From Halococcaceae archaeon (GTDB taxonomy: Archaea > Halobacteriota > Halobacteria > Halobacteriales > Halalkalicoccaceae): 10,765 bases of DNA. The notes under the pieces are model-generated. The model was not told the DNA's origin. It was given only the letters and a program-made list of their open reading frames with translations, and did not search any database. Both the position numbers and the translations under genes were made by a program. The stretch is from NCBI GenBank assembly GCA_007128515.1, contig SKXI01000078.1, forward strand, positions 1 through 10,765. Direction: 5' to 3'. Below, piece by piece: positions 2,194 through 7,328 of the stretch (its first letter is position 1; each line of letters starts with the position of its first letter).

Positions 2194-3384
2194 ATGGCCG
2201 AATTCACCGGGTTCCGCCGGCCGGACGGATCCGTAGGGGTCCGCAACCACGTCGCGGTGATCCCGACGTCCGTCTCGGCGAGCGCGCTCGCGACGCGGAT
2301 CGGCGCGGACGCGGGCGAACGCGTCCGGGCGACCCCACACCAGATGGGTGCAGACCAGCCGACGCCCGCACGGGAGCAGACCGAGCGCGTGCTCGCGGGA
2401 ACCGGCCGCAACCCGAACGTCGGCGCCGCGCTGCTCGTCGAGCTGGGGACGGAGTCGATCGACGTGGAGGCGCTCGCCGACCGGATCGCCGCGTCTGGAA
2501 AACCCGTCGAGACGCTCTCGATCCGCGAGGTCGGGGGGACGGCCGCGGCGATCGAGGCGGGGACCGAGCGCGCACGGTCGCTGGTCGGCGAGGTCGAGGG
2601 TGCACGCCGGGAGACAGCGGACGCCGCCGAACTGGTCTTCGGCGTCGAGTGCGGCGGCAGCGACGCCACCAGTGGGATCGCGGCGAACCCCGCGGTCGGA
2701 AACGCGTGTGACCGACTCGTCGAGGCCGGTGGGACGGCGAGTTTCAGCGAGACGCCGGAGTTCATCGGCGCCGAGCACATCCTCGCCGAGCGGTGTGCAG
2801 ACGAGGCGACACGCGAGCGGCTGCTCGAGCGCGTCGAGATGCGAGAGAACATGGCACAGCTGATGGGCGTCGACCTCCGCGGCGCACAGCCCACGCCCGG
2901 CAACCAGGAGGGCGGGCTGACGACGATCGAGGAGAAGAGTCTCGGCGCGATCTCGAAGGGCGGGACCACGCCGGTCCGAGGGATGGTCGAGTACGCCGAG
3001 CGGCTCCCGACCGGGGGCGGGCTCGTGCTGATGGACACGCCGGGCTACGACGTCGAGAGCGTCGTCGGAAAGGTCGCCGGCGGCGCGCAGGTGGTCGCGT
3101 TCACCACCGGGCGCGGCAGCACGACCGGCAACCCGATCGCCCCGGTGATCAAGGTCACCGGCAACCCGAAGACCTGGGAGCGGCTCTCGAACAACGTCGA
3201 CTTCGACGCCAGCACGGTCATCTCCGGCGAGTCGCTCTCGGACGTCGGCGAACGGCTGTTCGACCTGCTGCTCGAGGTCGCGAGCGGGCGGCCGACCGAG
3301 GCGGAGTACCGCCGGCTCGAGGAGTTCGCGATCAACGAGATCCAGCCGGAGGAGCTCGTCGGGCTCCGGGGTGAGGCCCGATGA
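2194..3384 (+). CDS. UxaA-family dehydratase large subunit A (lacks the HxHGC and GC motifs)
   Basis: The 396-residue product matches the large domain of the altronate/galactarate dehydratase family (UxaA, GarD, SuyB), which removes water or sulfite from sugar acids and related hydroxyacids. FTGFRRPDGSVGVRN at 4-18 is the family N-terminus. ECGGSD (152-157), SETPEFIGAEH (185-195), PGNQEGGLTTIEEKSLG (235-251) and GGAQVVAFTTGRG (296-308) are intact. The usual HxHGC is PHQMGA at 48-53 and the usual GLGCE is ELGTE at 83-87, so one His and two Cys are replaced. I chose the ATG at 2194 because the family N-terminus starts there and GGAG sits at 2187-2190, although the spacing to the ATG is short. 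In-frame starts at 2167 (ATG) and 2119 (GTG) add only unconserved sequence. Its end overlaps the next gene by ATGA. Confidence 0.85.
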   Translation: MAEFTGFRRPDGSVGVRNHVAVIPTSVSASALATRIGADAGERVRATPHQMGADQPTPAREQTERVLAGTGRNPNVGAALLVELGTESIDVEALADRIAASGKPVETLSIREVGGTAAAIEAGTERARSLVGEVEGARRETADAAELVFGVECGGSDATSGIAANPAVGNACDRLVEAGGTASFSETPEFIGAEHILAERCADEATRERLLERVEMRENMAQLMGVDLRGAQPTPGNQEGGLTTIEEKSLGAISKGGTTPVRGMVEYAERLPTGGGLVLMDTPGYDVESVVGKVAGGAQVVAFTTGRGSTTGNPIAPVIKVTGNPKTWERLSNNVDFDASTVISGESLSDVGERLFDLLLEVASGRPTEAEYRRLEEFAINEIQPEELVGLRGEAR

Positions 3385-3716
3385 AGGGCCGAGTCCTCGA
3401 CGGGTGTGCGTTGCTGATGACCGGGCGGGACACCGTCGTGACCGCGCTAGAGGACCTCGAAGCGGTTCGAGAGATAGCGCTCGGCGAGGGGAAGGGGCCG
3501 GTCGTGCTCCGCGAGGCGGTCCCGTTCGGTCACAAGGTCGCCGTCGAACGAATCGACGCCGGCGACCACGTCGTCAAGTACGGCGAGGTGATCGGCGAGG
3601 CGACCGAGCGAATCGAGCCCGGCGCCTGGGTCCACACGCACAACTGCGAGAGCACTCGTGGCCGGGGCGACGTCCGGAGCGACGGCGAGGCCGTCGCGGG
3701 GGGCGAGCGACGATGA
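3381..3716 (+). CDS. UxaA-family small subunit (stand-alone SAF domain)
   Basis: The 111-residue protein corresponds to the N-terminal SAF domain that bacterial altronate dehydratase carries in one chain with its large domain. Haloarchaea and SuyA-type enzymes encode it separately. Visible family motifs are PFGHKVAVERI at 48-58, VVKYGEVIGEAT at 64-75 and the metal/substrate-site WVHTHN at 83-88. The last 20 residues are polar and unconserved. Its ATG lies inside the stop of subunit A (ATGA), and its own stop overlaps the start of subunit B in the same way, so the three are almost certainly translated together. The small domain is expected to cover the active site of one or both large subunits; which one it pairs with cannot be told from the sequence. 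Confidence 0.88.
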   Translation: MKGRVLDGCALLMTGRDTVVTALEDLEAVREIALGEGKGPVVLREAVPFGHKVAVERIDAGDHVVKYGEVIGEATERIEPGAWVHTHNCESTRGRGDVRSDGEAVAGGERR

Positions 3717-4855
3717 CCCCGCCCACGGGGACCGGAACGGTTTACGACGGCGAACCCGCGGACGGGACGGCAGCGTTCACCGGCTACGGCCGGGCCGACG
3801 GCCGTATCGGCGTCCGGAACCGGCTGCTGGTGCTCCCGTCGGTGATCTGCTCGCACGTCGTCGCCGACCGGATCGCCGCGCGGGTGCCCACGGCGGTGAG
3901 CGCGCCGCACGACCACGGCTGCGCCCAGCTCGGCGCGGACAACGACCAGACGGCACGGACCTTCACCGGTATCGGCACGAACCCGAACGTCGCCGGCGTC
4001 CTCGTCGTCGGGCTGGGCTGCGAGGAGATCCAGAGTGACGACGTCGCGGCGCGCCTCGCCGATCTGGGGGTCCCGGTGCGGGAGCTCTCGATCCAGTCCG
4101 AGGGTGGCTCCGACCGGACGATCGAGCGCGGCGTCGAGGAGGCGAGGGCCCTGCTCGAGGAGCGACGCCGGGAGACGGCGGGGTCGCTCGCGGACCTGAC
4201 CGTCGGGATCGTCGGAAGCGACGTCCAGGACTCGACGGTCGAGACGGCCGACCCGCTCGTGGGTTCGTTCGCTCGTCGGGTCGTCGGCGCGGGCGGACGG
4301 GTCGTCGTCGCCGGGACCGAGCGCCTGTCGCCGCATGCGGAGGAGGCGGTGGCGGCGGCGGACGACGCCGTCGCGGAGGAGTGCAGGAAGCTGCTCGAGC
4401 GCCGGCGGCGGACGCCGGCGCGCACCGCTGGTCTCCGACGACGGGCCGCCGAACGCTCGTTCGACGAGCTCTCGCGTTCGTGGGACCGTCTGCCGATCCG
4501 AGACGTGCTCGCCTACGGCGAGCGGGCGAGCCACGACGCCGGCGTAGCGCTCGTCGACGCACCCTCGGGATTCGCCGAGGCGGCGACTGGGCTCGCCGCG
4601 GCGGGGGCACAGATCGTCGTCCACGCGACGGCAGAGGGGATCCCGTCGGGTCACCCGATCGTCCCCGTACTGAAGGTGACGGGCGACGAGAGGACCTATC
4701 GGGCGCTCTCCGGAGACATCGACATCGACGCTCGATCGGCCTCGCCGGAGGCGTTCGCCGAGCGCGCCATCGGGGTGCTCGACGGGGCCGAGAGCTGTGC
4801 TGAACGACACGGCCTGACCGAGTTCGCGATCACCCGGATCGGGCCGTCGATGTGA
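3713..4855 (+). CDS. UxaA-family dehydratase large subunit B (keeps HxHGC and GC, lacks ECGGSD and the PGN...KSLG block)
   Basis: A second UxaA large-domain paralogue of 380 residues, starting at the ATG that overlaps the stop of the SAF gene. The first about 20 residues are extra; FTGYGRADGRIGVRN (22-36) is the family start. HDHGC at 66-70 and VGLGCEEIQ at 99-107 are complete and match the canonical family. The region that should read ECGGSD reads IVGSDV (166-171). SETPEFIGAEH is replaced by AGTERLSPHAEE, and PGNxxGGLTTIEEKSLG is absent, replaced by an Arg-rich stretch (225-258) shorter than in subunit A. The C-terminal GAQIVVHATAEG and PVLKVTG are kept. It aligns without gaps to subunit A around the PH motif, so the two are true paralogues. 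It may be a partner subunit that supplies the metal ligands, or a degenerating copy. The GTG of the following remnant overlaps its stop. Confidence 0.82.
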   Translation: MTPPTGTGTVYDGEPADGTAAFTGYGRADGRIGVRNRLLVLPSVICSHVVADRIAARVPTAVSAPHDHGCAQLGADNDQTARTFTGIGTNPNVAGVLVVGLGCEEIQSDDVAARLADLGVPVRELSIQSEGGSDRTIERGVEEARALLEERRRETAGSLADLTVGIVGSDVQDSTVETADPLVGSFARRVVGAGGRVVVAGTERLSPHAEEAVAAADDAVAEECRKLLERRRRTPARTAGLRRRAAERSFDELSRSWDRLPIRDVLAYGERASHDAGVALVDAPSGFAEAATGLAAAGAQIVVHATAEGIPSGHPIVPVLKVTGDERTYRALSGDIDIDARSASPEAFAERAIGVLDGAESCAERHGLTEFAITRIGPSM

Positions 4856-5541
4856 GGTTCGAGGGCCGCGAGGGGGCGAACACGCAGCGCTCCGTCCGTC
4901 GCGTCGTCCCCTACCCCGACCTCTACACGAACTACGTCGAGGTCGAACGAGGAAAGGCCACAGCCGAAGCCCTCGAGGCACTCGGTGCGCACGTCGTCGT
5001 CCCGGACGTCCCCTCCAGCTGACGTCCTCGACCCCTACGTCACGTCGGTGGGACGTCGTCGAGCCGAGCGACCTCGCGATATTCCGGAGCGACAACGAGC
5101 ACTTGCTCCCGGCGGAGCGTCACGAGCGGCTGGCCGGGAACAGCTACGAGATACTAGAGTACGTCTACGGACCGCTCGAGCGGTCGGGAACGGACGAGAC
5201 GACGCGGCGAGCGAAACGCCCGACAGACCACGACGTCGTCTATCACGGCCACTGTCAGCAGCGAACGCTCGGGCACCAGGCGTACACGACGGCCGTGCTC
5301 GAACAGCTGGGCTACGACGTCGCGACGAGCCGATCGGAGTGCTGTGGGATGGCAGGCTCGTTCCGCGACAAGTTCGAGGACTACGAGCCGAGTATGACCG
5401 TCGGGTCGCTCCTGCGAGACCAGGGAAGCGGCAGCGCGGAATCGGCGCGTCCTCGTCAGCGGCTCGTCCTGTAGGAACCGGATAGAGGCGCTCGTCGGCG
5501 AGCGACCGACCCACCCGATCGAGCTCCTCGAAGACCGGTAG
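4852..5541 (+). pseudogene. C-terminal remnant of an FAD/Fe-S 2-hydroxyacid (lactate/glycolate type) oxidase
   Basis: Three pieces of one protein lie in order in two frames. Piece 1 (4852-5022) contains YPDLYTNYVEVERGKATAEA and ends VVVPDVPSS before a TGA. Piece 2 (from about 5052) reads DVVEPSDLAIF, NSYEILEYVYG, then the CCG-domain motifs HGHCQQRTLG and SECCGMAGSF. Piece 3, in the first frame again (5446-5541), reads RVLVSGSSCRNRIEAL and ends PTHPIELLEDR before a TAG. In intact proteins about 30 residues join pieces 1 and 2, so that part is deleted, and a frameshift near 5420-5445 separates pieces 2 and 3. The whole FAD-binding part and the ferredoxin-like part are missing. Intact relatives oxidise D-lactate or glycolate and pass electrons to the respiratory chain. 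The remnant begins with GTG inside the stop of large subunit B, suggesting a deletion joined the two genes. It is not expected to function. Confidence 0.85.
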
Positions 5542-6345: not shown

Positions 6346-7328
6346 TCACACACACTCGGTATCGGAAGAGACCTCGTTCCGTGGCGTCTCGCCGACCAGT
6401 ACGCGGCCGACGTCGTCGGCGATCTCCTCGCTCGACTGCTGGCACGAGGACTCCGAGCACCAGCCGACGTGTAGGGTGACGATCACGTTTTCGGGGTCGA
6501 ACGGCGCGTGGTCAGCGGGGAGCGGCTCCGGCTCCACCACGTCGAGACCGGCGAAGTCCATCCCGTCGGATTCGAGCGCGGAGACCAGTACGTCGGTGTC
6601 GGAGACGGGACTGCGGGCCGTGGCGGCGAGTATCGCGTCCTCGGTCATCGACGCCAGCGCGTCGGCGTCGGTCATCCGCTCGGTTTCCGTCGGAGTGGGG
6701 AGGTGGATCGAGAGCAGGTCGACCCGGGCGAGGAGTGCGTCGAACGCGACCGGCTCGGCGTTGTTGGTCCGCACGACGGTCGCCGGGAGATACGGGTCGT
6801 GGGCGATCAGTTCGCAGCCGAAGCCGTGGACCATCGTGGCGAGGCGACGGGGATCCTCCCGAAGCCGAGAACGCCGACCGTCGGCCCCCTGGAGCCGTCC
6901 GATCGGACTCCCCTCCGGACCAGACCCAGGCACCGCCGCGCGTCTGGCGGTCGTACGCGGAGAGCCTGCGAACGCACGCGAGCACCAGCGAGAAGGCGTG
7001 GGTCGCGACCTCGTCGGATGCTGTCGGTGAGGTCGTGGACGACGGTGACGCCGTGGTCGGCCGCGGCCTCGAGGTCGACGTCGACGACGCCGATCCCGGC
7101 CCGACCGATCACCGCGAGCGACGTCGCTCTATCGATGACGCGAGCGGTGACGGGGACGCCGGCGTCGACGATGAACCCCGACGTGTCACCGAGTTCCACG
7201 AGCAGGGCCGCTTCGGTGCGGGTGACCGCCGAGCTCGCGGTGACGTCGTAGCGGCCGAGCACCTCGCGATGGAGGTCTCGATCGACGGTCGTCGACTTCG
7301 AGTCGGTGATCAGGACGTTGTGTGTCGT
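6346..7328 (-). pseudogene. Broken D-2-hydroxyacid dehydrogenase
   Basis: Family motifs occur in order but in changing frames. First comes NVLITDSKSTTVDRDLHREV, LGRYDVTASSAV and LAVIGRAGIGVVDVDLEAAA (7320 to about 7020). The frame then shifts to DEVATHAFSLVLACVRRLSA (from about 7016), then to SPIGRLQG (about 6905), then back for PTVGVLGFGRI (the NAD glycine motif, about 6880), and shifts again for RRLATMVHGFGCELIAHDPY through to the stop at 6346. That is at least four frameshifts. The likely original start codon is now ACG (7328-7326), with no in-frame ATG or GTG before it. Conserved NTARGPV reads ATARSPV and TPHVGW reads TLHVGW, though the catalytic His remains. Intact relatives (320-330 residues) interconvert 2-oxoacids and D-2-hydroxyacids with NAD(P). 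Several independent lesions argue for real decay rather than a single sequencing error. Confidence 0.88.

Follow-up and report, generated by a model that had tools for sequence, protein, structure and literature searches.

In the UxaA/GarD family, altronate dehydratase (UxaA) and galactarate dehydratase (GarD, Protein Data Bank (PDB) entry 6u7l) of E. coli each carry a SAF domain, four conserved cysteines, and a set of catalytic motifs on one polypeptide. The locus described here has these elements distributed over three polypeptides, two of which are paralogues, and thereby raises the question of how an active site of this family could be shared between chains. It lies in a 10,765-nucleotide stretch of haloarchaeal DNA (contig SKXI01000078.1; hereafter the window, whose positions are used as numbering) from a genome that is 61.6% complete, and consists of three plus-strand genes, here called A, SAF, and B. 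The comparisons below suggest that their products probably form one obligate enzyme, an iron-dependent sugar-acid dehydratase whose site would join the iron-binding domain of B to the catalytic domain of A across the dimer interface.

Gene arrangement and motifs of the two large subunits

Gene A (2194..3384, plus strand, 396 residues) encodes a UxaA/GarD-family large subunit with an intact catalytic (C-terminal) domain. The gene that follows (3381..3716, plus strand, 111 residues) encodes a SAF-domain small subunit, identified by the Pfam SAF profile and by PDB matches to 3k3s, 3laz, and 6u7l. Gene B (3713..4855, plus strand, 380 residues) encodes a second UxaA/GarD-family large subunit, in which the iron-site (second) domain is intact and the C-terminal domain is altered and conserved anew; A and B were both assigned from Pfam, alignment, and AlphaFold2 (AF2) models. 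Each gene overlaps the next, the SAF start lying 4 bases into the A stop, and the coordinates given for them in a preliminary description of this DNA were confirmed. Both large subunits match the Pfam domains GD_AH_second and GD_AH_C above cut-off, the same two large-subunit domains that accompany SAF in E. coli UxaA and GarD, with 111.3 and 314.1 bits for A and 127.9 and 83.8 bits for B, whose GD_AH_C match covers only profile positions 114–240 of 242. Searched one at a time, the three proteins score below the 730.85-bit cut-off of the GarD equivalog TIGR03248 (A, 212.6; B, 70.3; SAF, 41.7 bits).

In an even sample of 292 haloarchaeal genomes from across the class (A matches above 430 bits, B matches above 220 bits, listings counted by hand), A is found in 42 and B in the identical 42, and no genome of the 292 has A alone or B alone. 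Widespread A-type proteins without a B-type partner, which the preliminary description had named as an observation that would speak against joint function, were looked for in this set and not encountered.

The same description had reported that A and B lost family motifs reciprocally, and the motif states in both proteins agree with it. In A, the counterpart of HxxGC is altered to PHQMGA (residue 48; 2335..2352, plus strand), with A53 at the cysteine site, and that of GLGCE to ELGTE (residue 83; 2440..2454, plus strand), with T86 at the cysteine site; ECGGSD (residue 152), SETPEFIGAEH (185), PGN (235), and EEKSLG (246) are retained. The catalytic-domain motifs from SETPEFIGAEH through PGN...EEKSLG span 2746..2946 (plus strand), and their listed columns are kept in 42 of 42 A proteins and lost in most B proteins. 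B retains PHDHGC (residue 65) and GLGCE (residue 100), and none of the other motifs of A (ECGGSD, SETPE, PGN...KSLG) is found in its sequence. Two features go beyond the preliminary description: C46 of B, within PSVIC, corresponds to a further proposed iron-site cysteine, which is replaced by Ala, Ser, or Thr in A, and the C-terminal domain of B, besides its loss of motifs, carries invariant residues of its own.

Division of four conserved cysteines

The bacterial superfamily member C785_RS13685, a D-arabinonate dehydratase, is a brown protein with a rubredoxin-like ferric electron paramagnetic resonance signal (Watanabe 2019, PMC6336799). According to that paper, four of its eight cysteines (134, 173, 208, and 276) are conserved across the superfamily, with the exception of sulfolactate sulfo-lyase, and are proposed to bind iron. 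In our analysis they were mapped by spacing to GarD residues 144, 179, 215, and 288, the spacing in GarD and UxaA being close to that published. All four lie in one chain in C785_RS13685, whereas here C46 (PSVIC; 3848..3850, plus strand), C70 (HDHGC; 3920..3922, plus strand), and C103 (GLGCE; 4019..4021, plus strand) of B correspond to GarD C144, C179, and C215, and C153 of A (ECGGSD; 2650..2652, plus strand) corresponds to C288. In the alignment, cysteine occupies the four columns in 0, 0, 0, and 42 of the 42 A proteins, in 41, 42, 41, and 1 of the 42 B proteins, and in 42, 42, 42, and 43 of 43 single-type rows, which comprise 42 bacterial proteins, GarD and UxaA included, and the divergent A' protein of locus L105. 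Neither A nor B has the four-cysteine pattern of the family, and as C46 is kept in B and replaced in A, the four conserved cysteines are split 3:1.

The split was also followed in held-out database proteins, those neither identical to nor contained in the sequences already used (113 of 119 for B and 111 of 120 for A); they were drawn from the best 120 matches per search and are therefore close orthologues. All 113 held-out B proteins have the first three cysteines, the fourth being lost in 108 and kept (CCCC) in 5. The fourth cysteine is present in all 111 held-out A proteins and is the only one of the four in 110, the remaining protein having a gap at the first column. The motif losses are thus neither chance nor the decay of a single locus, for the cysteine states recur in 42/42 A and 41–42/42 B proteins and again in the held-out sets.

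Complementary conservation and predicted folds

In 53 single-chain rows, namely the 43 single-type rows and ten haloarchaeal single proteins described below, 49 columns are at least 95% invariant, the second domain having 12 of them and the third 37. When a column is counted as lost if it is kept in under half of the rows, A loses 1 of the 12 second-domain columns and keeps all 37 conserved catalytic-domain columns, and B loses none of the 12 and 23 of the 37. Mean entropy, computed on the 38 loci that have A and B together, is 0.50 bits in A and 1.71 bits in B over GarD positions 273–400, and 0.65 and 1.19 bits, respectively, over positions 401–510. Site columns of the second domain, C179 and the nearby 183, 185, and 187 among them, are invariant in B and variable in A.

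The third domain of B is conserved in a manner of its own. In 155 B rows (the 42 and the 113 held-out proteins), H304 (GarD F436; 4622..4624, plus strand) and H314 (GarD L446; 4652..4654, plus strand) are invariant, each at a frequency of 1.00, and H366 (GarD W508; 4808..4810, plus strand) is nearly so, at 0.99. In the 40 bacterial singles used for comparison, the first of these positions is Phe in 40/40, and His occupies either of the others in less than 5%. B also has D170, G201, E203, and A290 as private residues; R204 is conserved in 108 of the 113 held-out B proteins, and T86, R111, and P56 in the second domain are private to A. The distribution of these private residues hints at a second A–B site that was remodelled, beyond mere loss.

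The AF2 models of A and B have mean predicted local distance difference test (pLDDT) scores of 92.9 and 92.3, and at E ≤ 0.001 their PDB matches are chains of 6u7l only, the full-length E. coli GarD that is the one solved relative found for them. The best template modelling scores against it, by query length, are 0.77 for A and 0.73 for B, which places both in the GarD fold. Given the confidence and the GarD-like shape of both models, a folded B protein is predicted.

A proposed composite active site between A and B

The arrangement could have arisen from an ancestral homodimer with two equal sites, each made of the second domain of one chain, with its three cysteines, and the third domain of the other, which would supply the fourth cysteine, ECGGSD, SETPE, PGN..EEKSLG, and TGRG. 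After a presumed duplication, the resulting heterodimer would have two non-equivalent sites. The second domain of B and the third domain of A would form a complete site, presumably still capable of dehydration, and the second domain of A and the third domain of B would form a site that has been remodelled and is bare of iron and catalytic residues. The single working site would then be served by one SAF protein for each A–B pair. Sites contained in single chains would leave both A and B broken, which is unlikely because both are conserved; if the sites cross the interface, the losses in A and B fall on the same expendable site, and the second domain of B and the third domain of A stay complete. 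This cross-interface geometry is the main testable claim of the proposal. The second domain of GarD reportedly forms the dimer interface.

The reciprocal loss in A and B would imply that the homodimeric UxaA/GarD enzymes also build their site across the interface. Their iron centre is an unusual one, and the natural 3:1 division of its cysteines predicts a site built between chains. A farther-reaching version, put forward tentatively as a doubtful extension, holds that in UxaA/GarD homodimers, too, the active site spans the interface and that the second composite site of the heterodimer, lined by T86, R111, and P56 of A and D170, E203, R204, H304, H314, and H366 of B, has become a new site; it might perhaps hold another metal, bind an allosteric ligand, or carry out a second reaction. 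Judged from these sequence comparisons, neither A nor B probably works without the other, and the division of an iron-dependent dehydratase between them seems to be conserved across haloarchaea. The preliminary description had proposed such a split enzyme, with the SAF protein as its lid, and the comparative side of that proposal, which now includes co-occurrence, overlapping genes, the 3:1 cysteine division, and the contrast between the third domains, stands more firmly than when it was made; the joint active site itself and the lid role of SAF keep the standing of predictions.

A divergent pair in a Salinarchaeum metagenome-assembled genome (L105:1834-4228) may point the same way. Its A' protein reads ACSNSD and EEVSFG, its B' protein lacks GLGC, and a SAF gene was not found at this locus; both halves of the pair have changed together, which we count in favour of a joint enzyme.

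Heterodimers in which one site works and the other was lost after duplication, the paralogues keeping opposite halves of an interface site, are known. Compared with them, what is divided here is a proposed iron-cysteine site, in a 3:1 ratio, and the second site is possibly remodelled. SuyAB has its SAF part on a small subunit of its own, and no second large paralogue is known there. The SuyAB pattern of one large subunit without iron cysteines plus SAF is not the one seen here, where a three-cysteine large subunit B accompanies A in 42/42 genomes. Sulfolactate sulfo-lyase (SuyAB) and a heteromeric L-fuconate dehydratase, both named in PMC6336799, are heteromeric, as is proposed for A–SAF–B. 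No description of the two-paralogue form was found in the titles and abstract openings listed by full-text literature searches, whose coverage leaves out most subscription journals; novelty is therefore not proved by it.

Alternative explanations

Several observations weigh against a joint enzyme. As a whole, the second domain is no more conserved in B (1.16 bits) than in A (1.15 bits) across the 38 loci, and no overall decay of that domain in A is thus seen. Since A and B are linked genes, their co-occurrence counts for little as a sign of binding. Two genomes (G190 and G250) have B broken in two, no SAF gene could be recognised beside A and B at one locus (L099), and the fourth cysteine survives in 1/42 B and 5/113 held-out B proteins. 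In the best quick tree, A and B are joined as sisters with a support of 0, which makes their duplication no more than plausible.

A further point comes from a third kind of haloarchaeal UxaA-like gene, a single gene present in ten of the 292 genomes (L143–L152), one of which (G073) also has A and B. All ten of these proteins lack the first three cysteines and so share the cysteine pattern of A, from which they are candidate SuyB-like sulfo-lyases. Nine of them (L143–L151) read THPLGRCQ, AHAGE, NCATSD, and TGQG, and the tenth (L152) reads CGGSD and TGNG. Presumably, then, lacking the three cysteines does not keep a protein from working alone, and the cysteine loss in A is by itself no proof of dependence on B; PMC6336799 likewise excepts sulfolactate sulfo-lyase from the conserved-cysteine rule. 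On these grounds, A and SAF could be a SuyB-like, iron-independent lyase or dehydratase on their own, with B as an iron-bound, non-catalytic accessory for regulation, assembly, or stabilisation, a role with which its non-canonical third domain and the invariant residues there would agree. However, A keeps the iron-dehydratase motifs CGGSD and TGRG, unlike the nine singles with CATSD and TGQG, and it never occurs without B in its 42 genomes, while B is missing from nine of the ten in which a SuyB-like single occurs, the tenth, G073, having the A–B pair. An A protein acting without B at its active site is, on this balance, unlikely.

Less likely again, and in our judgement improbable, is that each site lies within one chain and that A and B each form a homodimer of their own, with new activities that differ, the two being linked only by pathway and operon. 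The overall fold predicted to be kept in both proteins and the private conserved residues of each would suit such independence, but what A has lost and what B has lost belong to complementary halves of the same site, most loci have the genes packed closely around one SAF gene, and neither A nor B was found alone in the 292 genomes. That B is a decaying duplicate carried by linkage is very improbable and was set aside, for although B is more variable than A, has lost most of the family residues of the third domain, and is broken in the two genomes named above, 51 columns are invariant among 47 chosen B proteins, its predicted fold is confident (mean pLDDT 92.3), and the three iron-site cysteines are present in 113/113 held-out B proteins, B being found in many haloarchaeal genera.

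Gene order and distribution

Among 40 named haloarchaeal loci (L063–L102), all three genes were detected in 37; of the remaining three, L088 ends before B, L099 is the locus without a recognisable SAF gene, and in L102 A is broken in two. In 36 of the 37 loci SAF has an available start codon that overlaps the A stop by 4 bases, and in 30 B has one that overlaps the SAF stop by 4 bases, with an ATG overlapping by one base in six more; the test was mechanical, and availability of a start codon is no proof of the start used. In the genome set, A is in two pieces in G040, and B of G121 is divided between two contig ends. In 38 bacterial loci (L103–L141 minus L105), a SAF match lies upstream of or is fused to the single-type large gene in 33, and 5 have no such match. 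No B-type protein was found outside the order in 392 genomes of the phylum, drawn evenly and with at most five candidates scored per genome, a sampling by which absence outside the order is not proved. The best matches outside the order are two canonical single proteins of G417 (L162 and L163), which have all four cysteines and lie on different contigs.

Some loci depart from the common form. L099 is the second A–B pair of Salinigranum salinum, the first being L068, and its gap at the SAF position (L099:10150-10500) is GC-rich and repetitive. At L088:3957-5552, the A and SAF matches stand in one open frame, which may be an A–SAF fusion or a sequencing slip. G237, a genome beyond the 42, holds a deletion allele (L153:6092-6979) in which the first ~190 residues of A are joined to the C-terminal part of B, most of the third domain of A, SAF, and the second domain of B being removed; it adjoins genes resembling a sugar ABC transporter and, being one broken locus, carries no weight as proof.

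Neighbouring genes, role, and annotation

Neighbours within ~9 kb were compared in 41 loci (the 40 named loci and L154), with one member of each group other than Gfo/Idh checked against Pfam. They include mandelate racemase-type enolases in two groups (19 and 13 loci), fumarylacetoacetate hydrolases (18), and Gfo/Idh oxidoreductases (17), which were named by eye and borne out by one annotated locus. IclR regulators (15 loci), short-chain dehydrogenases/reductases (10), LUD/Fe-S proteins (8), UxuA-like proteins (7), and PdxA proteins (6) also recur. In four annotated plasmid regions, a dihydrodipicolinate-synthase-family gene is present in 3/4 and a transporter in 4/4. These neighbours suggest that the locus likely serves sugar-acid catabolism and that the substrate is probably a sugar acid; no neighbour is constant across the compared loci, and hence no substrate is named.

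In the same four plasmid regions, A, SAF, and B are each annotated as 'UxaA family hydrolase', and elsewhere the names altronate dehydratase large subunit, galactonate dehydratase, and sulfo-lyase subunit are used. Pathway annotation may thus count two enzymes where probably one exists.

Within the window, the region directly downstream of B (4858-5529) holds what remains of the C-terminal part of a LutB-like LUD/Fe-S protein, split across more than one frame, as three pieces 37–59% identical to an L074 protein. On the minus strand at 6367-7154, a 2-hydroxyacid dehydrogenase is spread over two frames, which indicates a frameshifted gene or a misassembly. For the A–B pair itself, an assembly artefact was considered and rejected, for the pair recurs with 94% (A) and 89% (B) identity in G257, a genome of the same genus in two contigs.

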